Positions 26,356 through 32,111 of a DNA stretch of 34,896 nucleotides are shown piece by piece. The DNA comes from a virus: IMG/VR virus record IMGVR_UViG_3300008267_000169, positions 1 to 34,896 of that record; one strand, written 5' to 3'. The position numbers and the translations under genes are program-made. The notes beneath the pieces are model-generated. The model saw only the letters and a program-made list of their open reading frames with translations, did no database searches and had not been told where the DNA came from. Each line of letters starts with the position of its first letter. Position 1 is the stretch's first letter.

Positions 26356-26383
26356 AAAATATATTTTCTTATTGATATGTCAA
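26356..26383 (-). promoter_or_regulatory. Promoter of portal operon (late class)
   Basis: Minus strand: -35 TTGACA (26383-26378), 16-base spacer, -10 TATTTT (26361-26356), predicted start about 26349, eight bases before the ATG at 26340. An A-rich stretch and CTCTTGACATAT are shared with the capsid promoter. The -35 overlaps the terminase ATG on the other strand. Confidence 0.7.
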
Positions 26384-28230
26384 GAGCTTTTTCTTCAAAC
26401 AAAGGTATTCGTCGCTACGGGATTCAATTCCCAGAACACATGGATGACCTTGGTATTGAATTATATTGTTACTCTATTAGCCGTGGTGAATATGGCAAAG
26501 AGTATTGTGTTAAACATAATATCAATATCTCTGACTTTAAATTACTCTCGCCGCACGAACACTTCATCAATGCCGTTAAACTCCAATGGCCTACTGAAGT
26601 TTCTATCTACAATCGTGGCTACACCAATACTCAATTATTGAGGACACTTGAGGAGCTTTGTAATAATACAGATATTTGTTTGGCTGGCGCGGCTTCTATG
26701 GGAAAGTCGTTTCCTGTTGGTCTTTGGGTTTATCTTGATTGGTGTTCTGCCCCGCATTGCACTTCGTCTTGGGTTGCTACTACCACTCTCGGTGCTTCCG
26801 AAGATCGTATCTGGGGTATCATCTCCAAGCTATGGAAGTGTGCCGCAGTTCAGTTTGGTAAGCTCATTGACTATCGCCACATGATTGTTTGGGGTGGAGC
26901 ATCCAATGATGAGGATAAAGACTATCGAAATGCTATCAAGGCTCTAGCTTTCCAGTCTGGTAACGAGGGTCAGAAGGCTATTGATACAACCCGTGGTCGT
27001 AAGAATGACAGGGTTAGGTTAGCCTTGGATGAGTTGCCAGAAATGGAACTGGGCGCGATTACCGCCAAGGTTAACTTATCTGCTAACAATGATGTGACGT
27101 TCATTGGTATTGGGAACCCATCTGCTGGTGATAATCCTCACACCCGCTGGGCCATGCCTAGTGGCGCATCTAACTTCGATTCGGTTAGTCCAGACATGGA
27201 CAAGTGGGAGACTGGAACTGGCGTTTGCTTGTTCTACAATGGTATGCGTTCTCCTAACTTCGCCGCGCCTGCGAGCGAGCCATCTCCATTCCCTTTCCTC
27301 ATGGATCGGAAGAAGCAGGAGATCATGCTTAAACAATGTTATGGAGACGAGAATGCTATCGACTATGTTCGTAACGCTATTGGTTGGTGGCCGAAGTCTG
27401 GATTCGCTCAAACGATTCTTACCGCCGATCTGATCCGTAATGCTGATACAAACGAAGAACCCCTTTGGGATTCTGAAGGTTTTACCAAGGTAGCCGGGTT
27501 CGATACCGCTTTCACAATTGGGGGAGATCGATGCGTTCTGACTATCGCCAAGCTAGGCTTTGTTCGCGGGACTCGCAATCGTGTCATGTGGTTGGAGAGC
27601 CAGAAGGTCATTCAGTTATCCGCGAATGCCGCCGCTGAGTTTGAAATCCAACTCGCTACTGAAGTTGTAACTCTATGCCGTGCGGCTGGTGTCCAACCTT
27701 CTAAATTCGGTATGGACGTTTCCGGTGATGGTGGACGAGTTGGACAAGCTATCATTCGTGAGTGGCTGCGCTTTGAGTCTTCTGGTGCGTCTATCGCTCT
27801 TATCTCCTCTATGGGTAAACCTACTGATCGACTCGCCGCTGAAGTCGATAAACGCCCGTGTAAGGATGTTTACGATAGGTTGGTATCTGAATACTACTAC
27901 TCTTGCTATCACGCCTTCAAGAGCCGTGTTCTCTTTGGCGTTGATCCTGCATCTGATCTGGCTAGGGAACTTTGTCTTCGTAGATACACGATCAAAAACA
28001 AGAAGATTGCCATTGAGACTAAAGACGAGTTAAAGGGAAGAACAGGTTACTCTCCCGACTTGAGTGATAGTTTGATCTACGCACTCGAAATGGCTAGGCG
28101 CAATGGACTAGTATTTATCGGAAACGATAAAGCTGTCCCAACTAACCGATTCTGGGCGCGGGATGAAAAGCCAGTCGAATCTTTCTCTGATGATGATTCT
28201 TACTCATCAGATGATAATGGGGATTGGTAA
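26377..28230 (+). CDS. terL: Large terminase subunit (ATPase-nuclease), 617 aa
   Basis: DNA-packaging motor. ATPase part: Walker A-like GAASMGKS (residues 104-111) and Walker B with catalytic acid LALDELPEM (Asp218-Glu219). RNase H-like nuclease part: Asp376 in GFDTAF, Asp447 in GMDVSG and Asp561/Asp564 in PDLSDSL. Length is normal for the family. A palindrome copy lies near codon 580, after the last catalytic residues. The plus-strand gene is divergent from the portal operon: its ATG lies over the -35 box of that operon's promoter. Small terminase was not identified with certainty. Confidence 0.9.
   Translation: MSRAFSSNKGIRRYGIQFPEHMDDLGIELYCYSISRGEYGKEYCVKHNINISDFKLLSPHEHFINAVKLQWPTEVSIYNRGYTNTQLLRTLEELCNNTDICLAGAASMGKSFPVGLWVYLDWCSAPHCTSSWVATTTLGASEDRIWGIISKLWKCAAVQFGKLIDYRHMIVWGGASNDEDKDYRNAIKALAFQSGNEGQKAIDTTRGRKNDRVRLALDELPEMELGAITAKVNLSANNDVTFIGIGNPSAGDNPHTRWAMPSGASNFDSVSPDMDKWETGTGVCLFYNGMRSPNFAAPASEPSPFPFLMDRKKQEIMLKQCYGDENAIDYVRNAIGWWPKSGFAQTILTADLIRNADTNEEPLWDSEGFTKVAGFDTAFTIGGDRCVLTIAKLGFVRGTRNRVMWLESQKVIQLSANAAAEFEIQLATEVVTLCRAAGVQPSKFGMDVSGDGGRVGQAIIREWLRFESSGASIALISSMGKPTDRLAAEVDKRPCKDVYDRLVSEYYYSCYHAFKSRVLFGVDPASDLARELCLRRYTIKNKKIAIETKDELKGRTGYSPDLSDSLIYALEMARRNGLVFIGNDKAVPTNRFWARDEKPVESFSDDDSYSSDDNGDW
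28115..28130. repeat. Palindrome copy 9, TTATCGGAAACGATAA
   Basis: Inside the terminase gene near codons 580-584 (Phe-Ile-Gly-Asn-Asp), after the last nuclease residues. Reads with a GAAA loop on the coding strand. Confidence 0.95.
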
Positions 28231-28604: not shown

Positions 28605-28905
28605 AAATTATGTAACCATTCTCTCTTGCCCACCCTACTTCGTGGTGGCATTTGTTGTGGCACGGACGGCAAAGAGCCATGAAAGTGGACTTCTCGCACA
28701 GGAACTTCCCTCTACCTTTTTTGTGGTGCAAGTCGCTGGCGGCTTGGTTGCATATTTCACACTGGTAGTTTTTTTCTTCAAAGTATTCTGCTTTGGCTTT
28801 TTCATATTCAGCATTCTTTACTCTCCGAGTGGTTGAGACTGATCTAAGTTTTCCACTTCGCTTTTTGAATCCTGTTTTTTGTAGGGGCGTTTTTCTTTGT
28901 AGCAT
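28591..28905 (-). CDS. HNH nuclease-like protein (104 aa)
   Basis: The N-terminus MLQRKTPLQKTGFKKRSGKL is basic and typical of short phage HNH proteins. Zinc ligands: CEIC (Cys49, Cys52) and CRPCHNKCHH (Cys79, Cys82 and following His), with the SDLHHKKGRGK core (His60-His61) between. HNH proteins next to terminases can be part of packaging, cutting DNA with the terminase. Its start lies 88 bases inside the XRE gene, an unusually long same-strand overlap, and the basic N-terminus supports that start. Confidence 0.75.
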   Translation of the reverse strand: MLQRKTPLQKTGFKKRSGKLRSVSTTRRVKNAEYEKAKAEYFEEKNYQCEICNQAASDLHHKKGRGKFLCEKSTFMALCRPCHNKCHHEVGWARENGYIIYDYK

Positions 28906-29147
28906 AATCCAATTACTTTATCTACCTGTTCTTTCTTTAAAATACTTTTCGAGTTTACTTCAATCTGGTTGATCAGTGAGCCAGTCACTCCAATCCTTTC
29001 TCCCAGTTCCCTGACAGTCATGCTCAGTTTCTTTCGAGTCTCGCGTAACTGCTGGGCGAAAGTCCTCCGTCCAATAGAACGAACAGTGCGTGATTGCTCG
29101 TAAGCCATCATGCAGCTATCGTATGCTTCTTCTAATGGATGTTTCAT
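28818..29147 (-). CDS. XRE/Cro-CI-type transcription regulator (109 aa)
   Basis: The helix-turn-helix lies at about residues 32-66: QLRETRKKLSMTVRELGERI, then VTGSLINQIE. The C-terminal third is charged and lacks a recognisable multimerisation or protease domain. The gene is divergent from the first early gene, with overlapping promoters; the minus promoter (TTGACT-N17-TAATTT) places the start point next to the ATG, suggesting a leaderless mRNA. Likely a repressor of early transcription. Whether it binds the TTATCG palindromes or the TTGACAAGTCAA site is open; the latter is closer. Confidence 0.8.
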   Translation of the reverse strand: MKHPLEEAYDSCMMAYEQSRTVRSIGRRTFAQQLRETRKKLSMTVRELGERIGVTGSLINQIEVNSKSILKKEQVDKVIGLCYKEKRPYKKQDSKSEVENLDQSQPLGE

Positions 29148-29577: not shown

Positions 29578-29593
29578 TTATCGGTTCCGATAA
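29578..29593. repeat. Palindrome copy 10, TTATCGGTTCCGATAA
   Basis: It begins right after the TAA stop of the first early gene; the arms can extend to seven bases with a two-base centre. It is the only copy whose loop (GTTC) does not follow the NNAA pattern on the coding strand. Followed by A6 and a promoter. Confidence 0.95.
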
Positions 29594-29602
29594 AAAAGAT
29601 GC

Positions 29603-29631
29603 TTGACACTGAATACAACATCTAGTAGTTT
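29603..29631 (+). promoter_or_regulatory. Early promoter 2 (replication operon)
   Basis: TTGACA (29603-29608), 17 bases, TAGTTT (29626-29631), A6 upstream. The start point is about 29638, so the transcript would begin with the first leader hairpin. Confidence 0.65.
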
Positions 29632-29637
29632 CTTTTG

Positions 29638-29786
29638 CGTGTGAGAAATCACACCTTCGGGGTAGGAGCCGAAGTGAATGAAAAGTCAGTAAATTAACAT
29701 AACAATATATGATCCCTTGTGGCACTGCCACTCCTTCGCGTCTGTTGCCGCACTTTTCCAGTGTCACAAGGGGTCGCCTTTTTAAA
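29638..29786 (+). ncRNA. Three-hairpin leader RNA or small RNA of the replication operon
   Basis: The predicted transcript starts at a hairpin: GTGTGA-GAAA-TCACAC (29639-29654). It is followed with no gap by CTTCGG/CCGAAG (29655-29674, loop GGTAGGAG), then a spacer and a 17-base-pair stem (29711-29727 with 29759-29775) having two G-U wobbles that pair only in plus-strand RNA. TTTTT follows 6 bases later, then the ATG at 29787. No known riboswitch family is recognised. Confidence 0.55.
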
Positions 29787-30059
29787 ATGATTATTAAACG
29801 TAATACATTCACCTTAGTAGAAACACGCCACTTAGATAACATTAAATTATCCGTATGCGGAATTGGTTTATTAACTCACATCACAAGATGGACGGAAGAT
29901 AACCATAATGTAGAGGGAATATTGGATCGCATATATGATATGAGTCATCATGATCCAAGTGCAGCGGTGGGATACATGGAACTTTTAGAAGAAGAAATAA
30001 TTGAGAATTTCTTTTCTGAACAGGAATTACAATCAATTCAAGCCTTAGCTGAATTATGA
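29787..30059 (+). CDS. Unknown early protein (90 aa), preceded by structured leader RNA
   Basis: The ATG at 29787 is chosen; a longer frame from 29709 would translate a 17-base-pair RNA stem and is rejected. MIIKRNTFTLVETRHLDNIK, RWTEDNHNVEGILDRIYDM, then LLEEEIIENFFSEQELQSIQ: acidic, helical. No family recognised. It ends in an ATGA overlap with the winged-helix gene, so it is part of the replication operon. Confidence 0.6.
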   Translation: MIIKRNTFTLVETRHLDNIKLSVCGIGLLTHITRWTEDNHNVEGILDRIYDMSHHDPSAAVGYMELLEEEIIENFFSEQELQSIQALAEL

Positions 30060-30874
30060 AACCTAAAAAACTTGGCAGGATGGTTTTGAAAGAGGAATTC
30101 TTCATCATTACAAAATGCCTTGAGGAAGCCATGATACTGAATCAAATGTGTTATTGGTCTGAAAGGATGAAGGACATTGATAAGTTTCTTGAAGAGGAAT
30201 ACACAATGTTAGTCGATCATGTCCCTGTTTTGTCTCACGGATGGATTTACAAATCAGCTTCTGAATTAGTTGAAGAAATGTTTGGAGCGATAAGCGAGAA
30301 AACAATGAATCGAGTTTTAGATCGCTTAGTAAAAAAGAATTTTTTACGTCGAAGGATGAATCCAAATCCAAGGTATAAATTCGATAAGACATACCATTAC
30401 AGGGTAAATTTTGTTGAAATCATAACTCAATTGACATCAAAAAATATGCCGTTAAGCGGGTATGCCATCATCGAAGAGTGCGCTGAAAGAATCAGTCAAG
30501 GTGTCGCACCGAAGCGTCATTTTGACGGATCGGAGGATCATTCTGACGGAGCAATAACAGAGACTATAACAGAAACTACTGACAAAGAAATAAACCCTAT
30601 AATCCCTTCAAAACCTAAACTCACAAAAGTTGGCGTTCAAAAACCTATTGCTGTCAGCGAGCAAGTCTGGGATGACTTCATCGCCCTCCGTAAAGCTAAA
30701 CGCGCTCCGCTATCGCAAACTGCGTTAGCTGGGATTTTGAATGAAGCAGACAAGGCTTTGATGACTTTGGAAGATGCCTTGACCGAATGCATCACCCGTG
30801 GATGGCAGAGCTTCAAGGCTGAATGGATGAAACCAAAAACAACTACCAAACCAGAACGATTCTCCAACATTTAA
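30056..30874 (+). CDS. Winged-helix replication initiator / helicase-loader-like protein (272 aa)
   Basis: Residues about 5-115 hold a winged-helix region (ASELVEEMFGAISEKTMNRV, DRLVKKNFLRRRMNPNPRYK). After a Ser/Thr/Pro-rich linker, the C-terminal domain (SEQVWDDFIALRKAKRAPLS, ALTECITRGWQSFKAEWM) resembles DnaT/lambda O-type C-terminal segments that load the helicase. The next gene, four bases on, is a DnaB-type helicase, which supports the role. Binding origin unknown. Confidence 0.65.
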   Translation: MKPKKLGRMVLKEEFFIITKCLEEAMILNQMCYWSERMKDIDKFLEEEYTMLVDHVPVLSHGWIYKSASELVEEMFGAISEKTMNRVLDRLVKKNFLRRRMNPNPRYKFDKTYHYRVNFVEIITQLTSKNMPLSGYAIIEECAERISQGVAPKRHFDGSEDHSDGAITETITETTDKEINPIIPSKPKLTKVGVQKPIAVSEQVWDDFIALRKAKRAPLSQTALAGILNEADKALMTLEDALTECITRGWQSFKAEWMKPKTTTKPERFSNI

Positions 30875-30878
30875 CCTC

Positions 30879-32111
30879 ATGAAAAAAGTCCCAATAGCAC
30901 ACAAGAGCGAAGCGGCAGCATTGTCGCTGATAGCAACAGACCGAAATATCCTTTCCCAACAAACATGGGATGCCGATTATTTCGCGCTACCTGCCCACAG
31001 AATCGTTTTTAACGCACTCCAAGGGGTTCACCAGCGGACAGGCACTTGCTGTCAATTCTCGGCGATTGCTGAACTAGAATCCACGGGGCAACTAGAATCG
31101 GCTGGTGGTGAGAACGAAGTCCATGACATCCTAGCTACGATGAAGATCGCATCTGGTAAGGTCTGCCAAGACATGGCTGATGACTACCGAAAGAATCTTC
31201 ACAAGATGAAGGGCTACCGAGATGCCATCTCTATCATTGAGAAAACAGAGCATGACCTGCGCGGTGGAAGGGCTGACCTACGCTCGTTATCGGAAACGAT
31301 AATGAAGTGCGCCGAAGATCGGACAACAAAAGTCAAACCAGTCAAAGACCTGATCATTGAGATCATTGATGAGATGGAAGGTAAAGCAGTAAACGAATGC
31401 TTTACCACTGGAATGATAAAAGTAGATCGTGCGCTCAAGGGTGGGATGCACAAAGGAGAGATGATGACAGTAGCTTCTGAAACAGGAGGAGGTAAATCCA
31501 TCTACCTAGTCCAAGCGGCCCTAGCAAATCTATTGGAAGGAAAGCCAGTGTTATTCTTTTCCCTAGAGATGAAGGCTAAAGACATCCTAACCCGCATGGC
31601 TTGTAACATGGCAGGCTACCCGATCCGCGAACCAGAGGATTACAAGAATGCAAACCAAGGAGAACTGAAAGCGATCAGCGCGGCACTCCTCAGATTGCAC
31701 AAGTTACCCATCGAAATCGTGGATGGAGTGTCCGAAATCACCGAGATTGAGGCCAATATCGCCCGATATACAGGGGAAAAACGGGCAGATGTGATTGTGG
31801 TAGATTACCTCCAAATCATCTCATATGATGGTTCAGACAGCCGAGAAGGGCAGATTTCCGAGATAGCAAGGCGGTTAAAGGTATCTGCCATCAAGAATAA
31901 TTCGATTATGCTGACTGCTTCCCAGTTAAACGACGAGGGAAGACTGCGCGAATCACGGGCAATCGGGATGCACTCTGACCAAGTAGTGTATGTCGAACAC
32001 TTCAAGACTAAGAGTATGTTAACGATCAAGAAGAACCGCCGTGGCGCGAGGAACTACACAACGGAAATCATCATGCGTGGTGACATTTCCAAACTAGAGG
32101 AGGTATACTGA
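30879..32111 (+). CDS. Replicative DNA helicase, DnaB type (410 aa)
   Basis: The N-terminal DnaB-like domain (about 1-105: ALSLIATDRNILSQQTWD) and a linker are followed by the RecA-type motor domain. Walker A ASETGGGKS (199-207), catalytic-acid motif FSLEM (Glu230), Walker B VIVVDYLQ (Asp309), LTASQLN (346-351, Gln349) and a basic C-terminal KKNRRGAR. A palindrome copy lies in the linker (codons 138-143, Leu-Ser-Glu-Thr-Ile). No primase domain; a separate primase may lie outside the window. Ends with a TGATG overlap to the next gene, preceded by a strong GAGGAGG. Confidence 0.9.
   Translation: MKKVPIAHKSEAAALSLIATDRNILSQQTWDADYFALPAHRIVFNALQGVHQRTGTCCQFSAIAELESTGQLESAGGENEVHDILATMKIASGKVCQDMADDYRKNLHKMKGYRDAISIIEKTEHDLRGGRADLRSLSETIMKCAEDRTTKVKPVKDLIIEIIDEMEGKAVNECFTTGMIKVDRALKGGMHKGEMMTVASETGGGKSIYLVQAALANLLEGKPVLFFSLEMKAKDILTRMACNMAGYPIREPEDYKNANQGELKAISAALLRLHKLPIEIVDGVSEITEIEANIARYTGEKRADVIVVDYLQIISYDGSDSREGQISEIARRLKVSAIKNNSIMLTASQLNDEGRLRESRAIGMHSDQVVYVEHFKTKSMLTIKKNRRGARNYTTEIIMRGDISKLEEVY
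31287..31302. repeat. Palindrome copy 11, TTATCGGAAACGATAA
   Basis: Inside the helicase linker (Leu-Ser-Glu-Thr-Ile), plus-strand orientation, GAAA loop. Confidence 0.95.

Follow-up and report, generated by a model that had tools for sequence, protein, structure and literature searches.

The leader and its genomic setting

The window, i.e. the whole stretch of DNA analysed here, is the phage record IMGVR_UViG_3300008267_000169 of IMG/VR (34,896 bases, positions 1 to 34,896). Its replication operon on the plus strand includes a first gene of 90 amino acids with no family match (29787–30059), a replication initiator of the O-like / DnaD-like type (30056–30874; phrog_678, E 9e-30) and a DnaB-like replicative helicase recognized by its family matches (30879–32111). 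Ahead of these genes lies a promoter on the same strand, TTGACA-N17-TAGTTT (29603–29631), in which TTGACA (29603–29608) is separated by 17 nt from TAGTTT (29626–29631). It is followed, in this order, by a hairpin P1, a second hairpin P2 that abuts P1, an A/T-rich stretch of 36 nt, a long stem P3, the trinucleotide GCC, the spacer TTTTTAAA and the ATG at 29787. In folding, this leader scores better than 200 of 200 dinucleotide shuffles (z −4.1).

Most genes of the window have no Shine-Dalgarno sequence and are preceded by A/T-rich stretches, for example AATAATAAT-ATG; the first operon gene (29787) likewise has none ahead of its start codon. Among the phage matches listed for the helicase, the best E-value belongs to Akkermansia phages, at about 29% identity, and in these phages no recognisable copy of the leader was found (best E 4.4). 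A host of the Verrucomicrobiota type would be our guess. A protein of 617 amino acids (26377–28230, plus strand) weakly matches the terminase large subunit (phrog_2, E 9e-7). Because this putative terminase has no tblastn match among annotated phages, the phage appears to be distant from cultured ones.

Using the initiator as query, viral contigs were retrieved whose DNA resembles the window as far as roughly the end of the leader, beyond which it is often divergent. Pattern scans enlarged this set to ~100 distinct loci on metagenomic phage contigs. Two alignments are referred to in the following: a block alignment of 88 distinct sequences, and a MAFFT alignment of 44 sequences that was built without structure information. 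Four further lineages (L264, L266, L269 and L273) were found by a pattern blind to P1, P2 and the two pseudoknot helices, PK1 and P5, described below. In those loci that were searched with a covariance model, the leader RNA occurs once per locus. For many relatives the DNA likeness to the window ends a few bases from the start codon, at about 29790, and for this reason the leader may be a recombination joint for swapping replication genes.

Promoter, start codon and downstream genes

The promoter is present as proposed in an earlier sequence-only reading of this DNA; in our promoter scan it falls below the cutoff of 9 of 12 positions. All 91 elements with a promoter assignment have a TTGACN-like/TANNNT promoter (spacing 16–18 nt) that ends 5–9 nt before P1, where the form was itself required by the search and the informative part is the constant distance to P1. 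This distance is kept across 28 different promoter/discriminator sequences. In the window, P1 starts 7 nt past TAGTTT, and transcription would start at about 29638, with P1 as the 5′ end of the RNA.

The other end of the element is positioned with similar regularity. The GCC that follows P3 (29776–29778) is invariant in the 44-row alignment, and the spacer between it and the start codon (TTTTTAAA, 29779–29786) measures 8–10 nt in 95 of 98 relatives, despite 34 different spacer sequences. The base of P3 hence lies 11–13 nt ahead of the ATG (95/98). By blastp, the genes behind this ATG in the relatives form six clusters, and several kinds of initiator-like protein are found in the largest. Judged by such comparison, they would represent no fewer than six groups with distant or no relationship to one another, mostly initiator-like. 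Since the position of the RNA is fixed while the downstream genes differ in this way, the RNA is linked in cis to the beginning of the replication operon, and not to one protein.

A palindromic operator, TATCGGTTCCGATA, is located just upstream of the leader promoter (29579–29592), and 73 of 87 relatives have an operator of this type no more than 130 nt 5′ of P1. The palindrome TATCGNNNNCGATA occurs in thirteen copies in the window, compared with 0.055 expected in shuffles (at 565, 5543, 8074, 12906, 15506, 16412, 18505, 21129, 25957, 28116, 29579, 31288 and 33846), and the relatives carry 347 copies in 761 kb, compared with 0.7 expected. The palindromes look like a set of dispersed operators, similar in kind to the stoperators found in Cluster A mycobacteriophages. 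A helix-turn-helix (HTH) protein encoded next to the leader region (28818–29147, minus strand) is a candidate repressor for them.

A fold with two pseudoknots

P1 is a hairpin of the form GTGTGA-GAAA-TCACAC with a GAAA loop (29639–29654). Over the family, 97.7% of its alignment cells are paired, and all six pairs display changes on both sides in the 44-sequence alignment. P2 (CTTCGG-GGTAGGAG-CCGAAG, 29655–29674) follows directly. The strands of P3 (29711–29727 and 29759–29775) form a stem of 17 bp with two G-U pairs; the outer 16 pairs were counted over the family, and C29759-G29727 is the 17th in the window. Thus, the P1 hairpin, the abutting P2 and the 17-bp stem are all found where the earlier reading had placed them. 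That reading treated them as three independent stems and took the loop of P2 for an exposed sequence of the Shine-Dalgarno type. Neither view holds: the P2 loop (GGTAGGAG, 29661–29668) is the 5′ strand of a pseudoknot helix, PK1, and covaries with the stretch corresponding to 29731–29737, and the helices PK1, P4 and P5, the last two of which had been missed, join the stems into one double-pseudoknot fold. P2 loops such as GTGAAGAA occur in the family and equally speak against a Shine-Dalgarno role.

In PK1, GTAGGAG (29662–29668) pairs with CTCCTTC (29731–29737) in the 5′ part of the P3 loop. The window forms 6 of 7 pairs, with one U-U mismatch that is common to other members carrying CTCCTTC; over the family, 99.4% of cells are paired and 5 of 7 pairs display changes on both sides. 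The partner strands vary together, namely GGTGAGAG with CTCTCAT, GGTGAAGG with CCTTCAT, GGTAGGAG with CTCCTAT, CGTGAAGAA with TTCTTCAC, and, in L107, CGTAGGAA with TTCCTAC. The second pseudoknot helix, P5, pairs GAAAAGT in the stretch after P2 (29680–29686) with ACTTTTC after P4, inside the P3 loop (29752–29758), and its partner sets include GGATAAAA with TTTTATCC, GAAGAAGT with ACTTCTTC and AGCATAAA with TTTATGCT. P5 and P3 are connected by an A/T-rich linker (29687–29710) with the conserved TAAATTAAC / TAAATTGAA in invariant or near-invariant columns; its length varies from 16 to 31 nt over the family.

P4 is a small hairpin (GCG-TCTGTTGC-CGC, 29738–29751) with a conserved apical loop of the family consensus TCAGTT(C)GC. 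In the 44-sequence alignment all of its cells (100%) are paired, with GC/CG swaps, and the loop columns are invariant. Variants of its 3-bp stem include GCG/CGC, CTG/CAG, CCG/CGG and CGG/CCG, the last in L269 and L273. Because the loop (29741–29748 in the window) is nearly invariant over the family although unpaired in the model, it is likely a site for a ligand, a protein or a tertiary contact. As the loop of P3 contains a strand of PK1, the whole of P4 and a strand of P5, the RNA is a double pseudoknot; a single drawing can hold PK1, P5 and P3 with no base used twice, except for the contested base 29759 in the window.

Covariation and strand

In the 44-sequence alignment, 91.2% of the cells of P1, P2, PK1, P3 and P4 are paired, compared with 37–50% when the strands are slid, and 30 of 38 pairs display changes on both sides. 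None of 500 shuffles matched the observed pairing or the covariation score. A stricter, home-made test compared all column pairs with a tree-based null and returned 14 significant pairs, 10 of which belong to the model (six in P5, two in PK1, one each in P1 and P4); of the other four, two are neighbours within PK1 and two lie in P1 columns. Six of the eight P5 pairs and the strongest PK1 pairs are thus significant, and the pairs of P2 and P3 singly stay below significance in this test.

The block alignment placed the 5′ strand of P5 by best complement, which is circular, and strands swapped between elements serve as the control. With their own strands, 51 of 88 elements pair at 8/8 and 86 of 88 at no fewer than seven positions; with swapped strands these shares are 4% and 34%. 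The four lineages found by the blind pattern display PK1 again (6–8 pairs) and P4 again, and P5 at 8/8 in three of them and at 6/8 in L269. In L269 the P2 loop is one base short, and so is the partner strand of PK1.

Compensatory changes occur in all helices, which answers the earlier call for a covariation check in relatives and bears out the proposal that a structured RNA of regulatory type heads the replication operon. Summed over the helices, there are 408 G-U pairs and 11 A-C pairs; the RNA is therefore read in the plus direction, and an RNA from the minus strand is rejected. Comparison of the relatives shows how the RNA folds, which strand encodes it, that its place between promoter and start codon is fixed and that it is linked in cis to replication genes. 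That a conserved, pseudoknotted family of leader RNAs exists is well supported, and we hold it to be nearly certain.

Searches for known families and copies

The search against Rfam that had been suggested at the outset was run, and no family matched the leader. In Rfam 15 nothing was found at the leader of the window, either at the gathering threshold or at E 10, the best sub-threshold matches being microRNA models (E 0.7–6). At the leader of 13 related loci there was again no match, and the sole match elsewhere was abiF. This abiF RNA (RF03085) exceeds the gathering score in the related phage contig L266 (6613–6649, minus strand). Known ribozyme families likewise have no Rfam match at the leader of related loci.

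A pattern of the P1/P2 sequence of one subtype had no match in 84,980 species genomes; as the pattern covers this one subtype only, it does not prove the absence of the RNA from genomes. In annotated phages, blastn with the window region and with the leader of a relative returned no match. The matches listed by a scan of 14-mers were mostly due to chance, and a further pattern scan yielded just five GC-rich chance matches. The open literature contained no description of such an element, most subscription papers lying outside this search. The family is new relative to Rfam 15 and the searchable open literature, and its general kind, the structured leader RNA, is known.

Two other identities were rejected. 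A tRNA or tmRNA is contradicted by the lack of any ARAGORN match in the window, and a leader peptide by the ATG at 29709 at the base of P3, which occurs in type A only, type B having ATATATCACC at this place.

Possible mechanism

We hypothesize that the leader acts in cis on the initiation of translation of the first replication gene. This is the likeliest of the mechanisms considered, although we would give it somewhat less than an even chance; it is favoured because the distance to the start codon is fixed whatever gene follows, and because Shine-Dalgarno sequences are scarce in the phage. The leader would form the 5′ part of the replication-operon mRNA, transcribed from the first base of P1, and would fold into P1, P2, P3 and P4, joined by PK1 and P5. 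The closing base of P3 would thereby be placed 11–13 nt ahead of the AUG, whichever replication gene comes next, so that the folded body would border the ribosome landing site on its upstream side, in a phage most of whose genes do without Shine-Dalgarno sequences. Folding itself, or a host factor or ligand that binds the conserved P4 loop, may then set the expression level of the operon. The start of the transcript, the action on translation and any ligand or host factor are presumed in this account. On the other side, the start codon lies outside the fold, no Shine-Dalgarno sequence is sequestered and a mode of gating is not visible; the tree-based test of all column pairs gave no alternative (switch) helix with covariation. 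The fixed distance to the ATG might also result from tight packing beyond the footprint of the ribosome.

A bolder form of the hypothesis would see here a new structural class of phage RNA, beginning at +1 and taking the place of the Shine-Dalgarno sequence as ribosome landing element. The double-pseudoknot body, 11–13 nt from the AUG, would recruit or gate ribosomes in a host with few Shine-Dalgarno-led genes, and the phages would keep the RNA while exchanging the replication gene behind it. We consider this form rather unlikely.

The other explanations are taken up in descending order of the weight we assign to them, and the last groups may overlap with control of translation. The nascent leader might bind the RNA polymerase that transcribes it and enable this polymerase to pass terminators along the replication operon, in the manner of the put RNAs of phage HK022. 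It begins at the presumed +1 of an early-type operon, is present once per locus, has an intricate conserved fold, and no phage protein has been identified as needed. However, put does not require a set distance to a start codon, putR being located ~270 nt past its start site. The leader RNA, in contrast, is fixed 11–13 nt from the ATG, and its double-pseudoknot fold of ~140 nt differs. Such antitermination appears possible but unlikely. Attenuation, as suggested by the earlier reading, would require P3 and the following U-run to form an intrinsic terminator that competes with the pseudoknots; indeed, in 74 of 87 members, including the window, a P3 stem of 14–16 bp is followed by GCC and 4–8 U. 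However, U residues directly after GCC are absent in 9 of 87 members and number just 2–3 in 4 more, and L269 (GCCCCTCC), L273 (GACCCCTCC), L264 (GCCCTCAA) and L266 (GCCCTCTAA), inspected by eye, have no U-run and keep the fold. A universal terminator is rejected because 13 of 87 members and these held-out lineages lack a run of at least 4 U directly after GCC. The conserved GCC moreover separates stem and U-run, and, apart from 29759 in the window, P3 shares no base with PK1 or P5. We regard attenuation as a rather weak candidate.

Less probable again is a riboswitch, in which the conserved core (P4 loop, linker and GCC) would sense the state of the infected cell by binding a small molecule or an ion. 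A conserved pseudoknotted core in a 5′ leader is indeed found; it is aptamer-like, has a nearly invariant apical loop and is linked in cis to genes that form a coherent class. Set against this are the lack of a match to any Rfam class, of an obvious ligand from gene content and of a visible switch helix. Finally, the 5′-terminal P1 and the knotted body might shield the mRNA from decay, or the RNA might be released as a small RNA by cleavage or self-cleavage. P1 lies directly at the presumed 5′ end and is conserved as a hairpin and not as a sequence, but protection or processing would leave the invariant P4 loop and the fixed distance to the ATG unexplained, and no known ribozyme family matches; we think it improbable.

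The leader RNA is probably a switch or an aid for turning replication on. The same RNA is kept while unrelated initiators are swapped behind it, and its job would therefore be a general one. The family is well supported, with two covarying pseudoknots, and it stands on the operon that decides when the phage replicates; ~90 natural variants are at hand for structure probing and reporter tests. It also offers a way to ask how phages of hosts with few Shine-Dalgarno genes control translation.

Comparison with known systems

The immunity RNAs P4 CI and P1 c4 (Rfam C4 and related) are trans-acting antisense RNAs. The leader resembles them as a case in which RNA exerts control through short loop complementarities, in the leader of an operon for phage replication or an antirepressor. 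In contrast, its complementarity is intramolecular, it is present in one copy per locus, and it has no Rfam match. With attenuators based on intrinsic terminators it shares, in most members, a long stem followed by a U-run; it differs in that the U-run is dispensable, GCC intervenes as a spacer, and the loop of the stem carries two pseudoknot strands and P4.

Orphan riboswitch candidates and other structured leader RNAs have been found by comparative genomics (e.g. PMC2864571). Like the orphan candidates, the leader RNA is a covarying, pseudoknotted 5′ leader with no assigned ligand; it differs in being tied to several phage replication families and in lying flush with both promoter and start codon.

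The put element of phage HK022 is an RNA of ~70 nt in the early transcript with two stem-loops, putL being located just downstream of PL (PMC9378689). Both are structured RNAs that head an early operon of a phage and act, or would act, in cis with no known phage protein involved (PMC9378689). However, put, with ~70 nt and two stem-loops, is not tied to a start codon, whereas the leader RNA is a double pseudoknot of ~140 nt that is locked to the ATG, counted for this comparison as five helices including two pseudoknots. The two are set apart here by described structure and placement, their sequences having been compared via Rfam only. With fold and placement different, HK022 put may nevertheless be the best functional analogue of the leader as a cis-acting RNA of an early operon.
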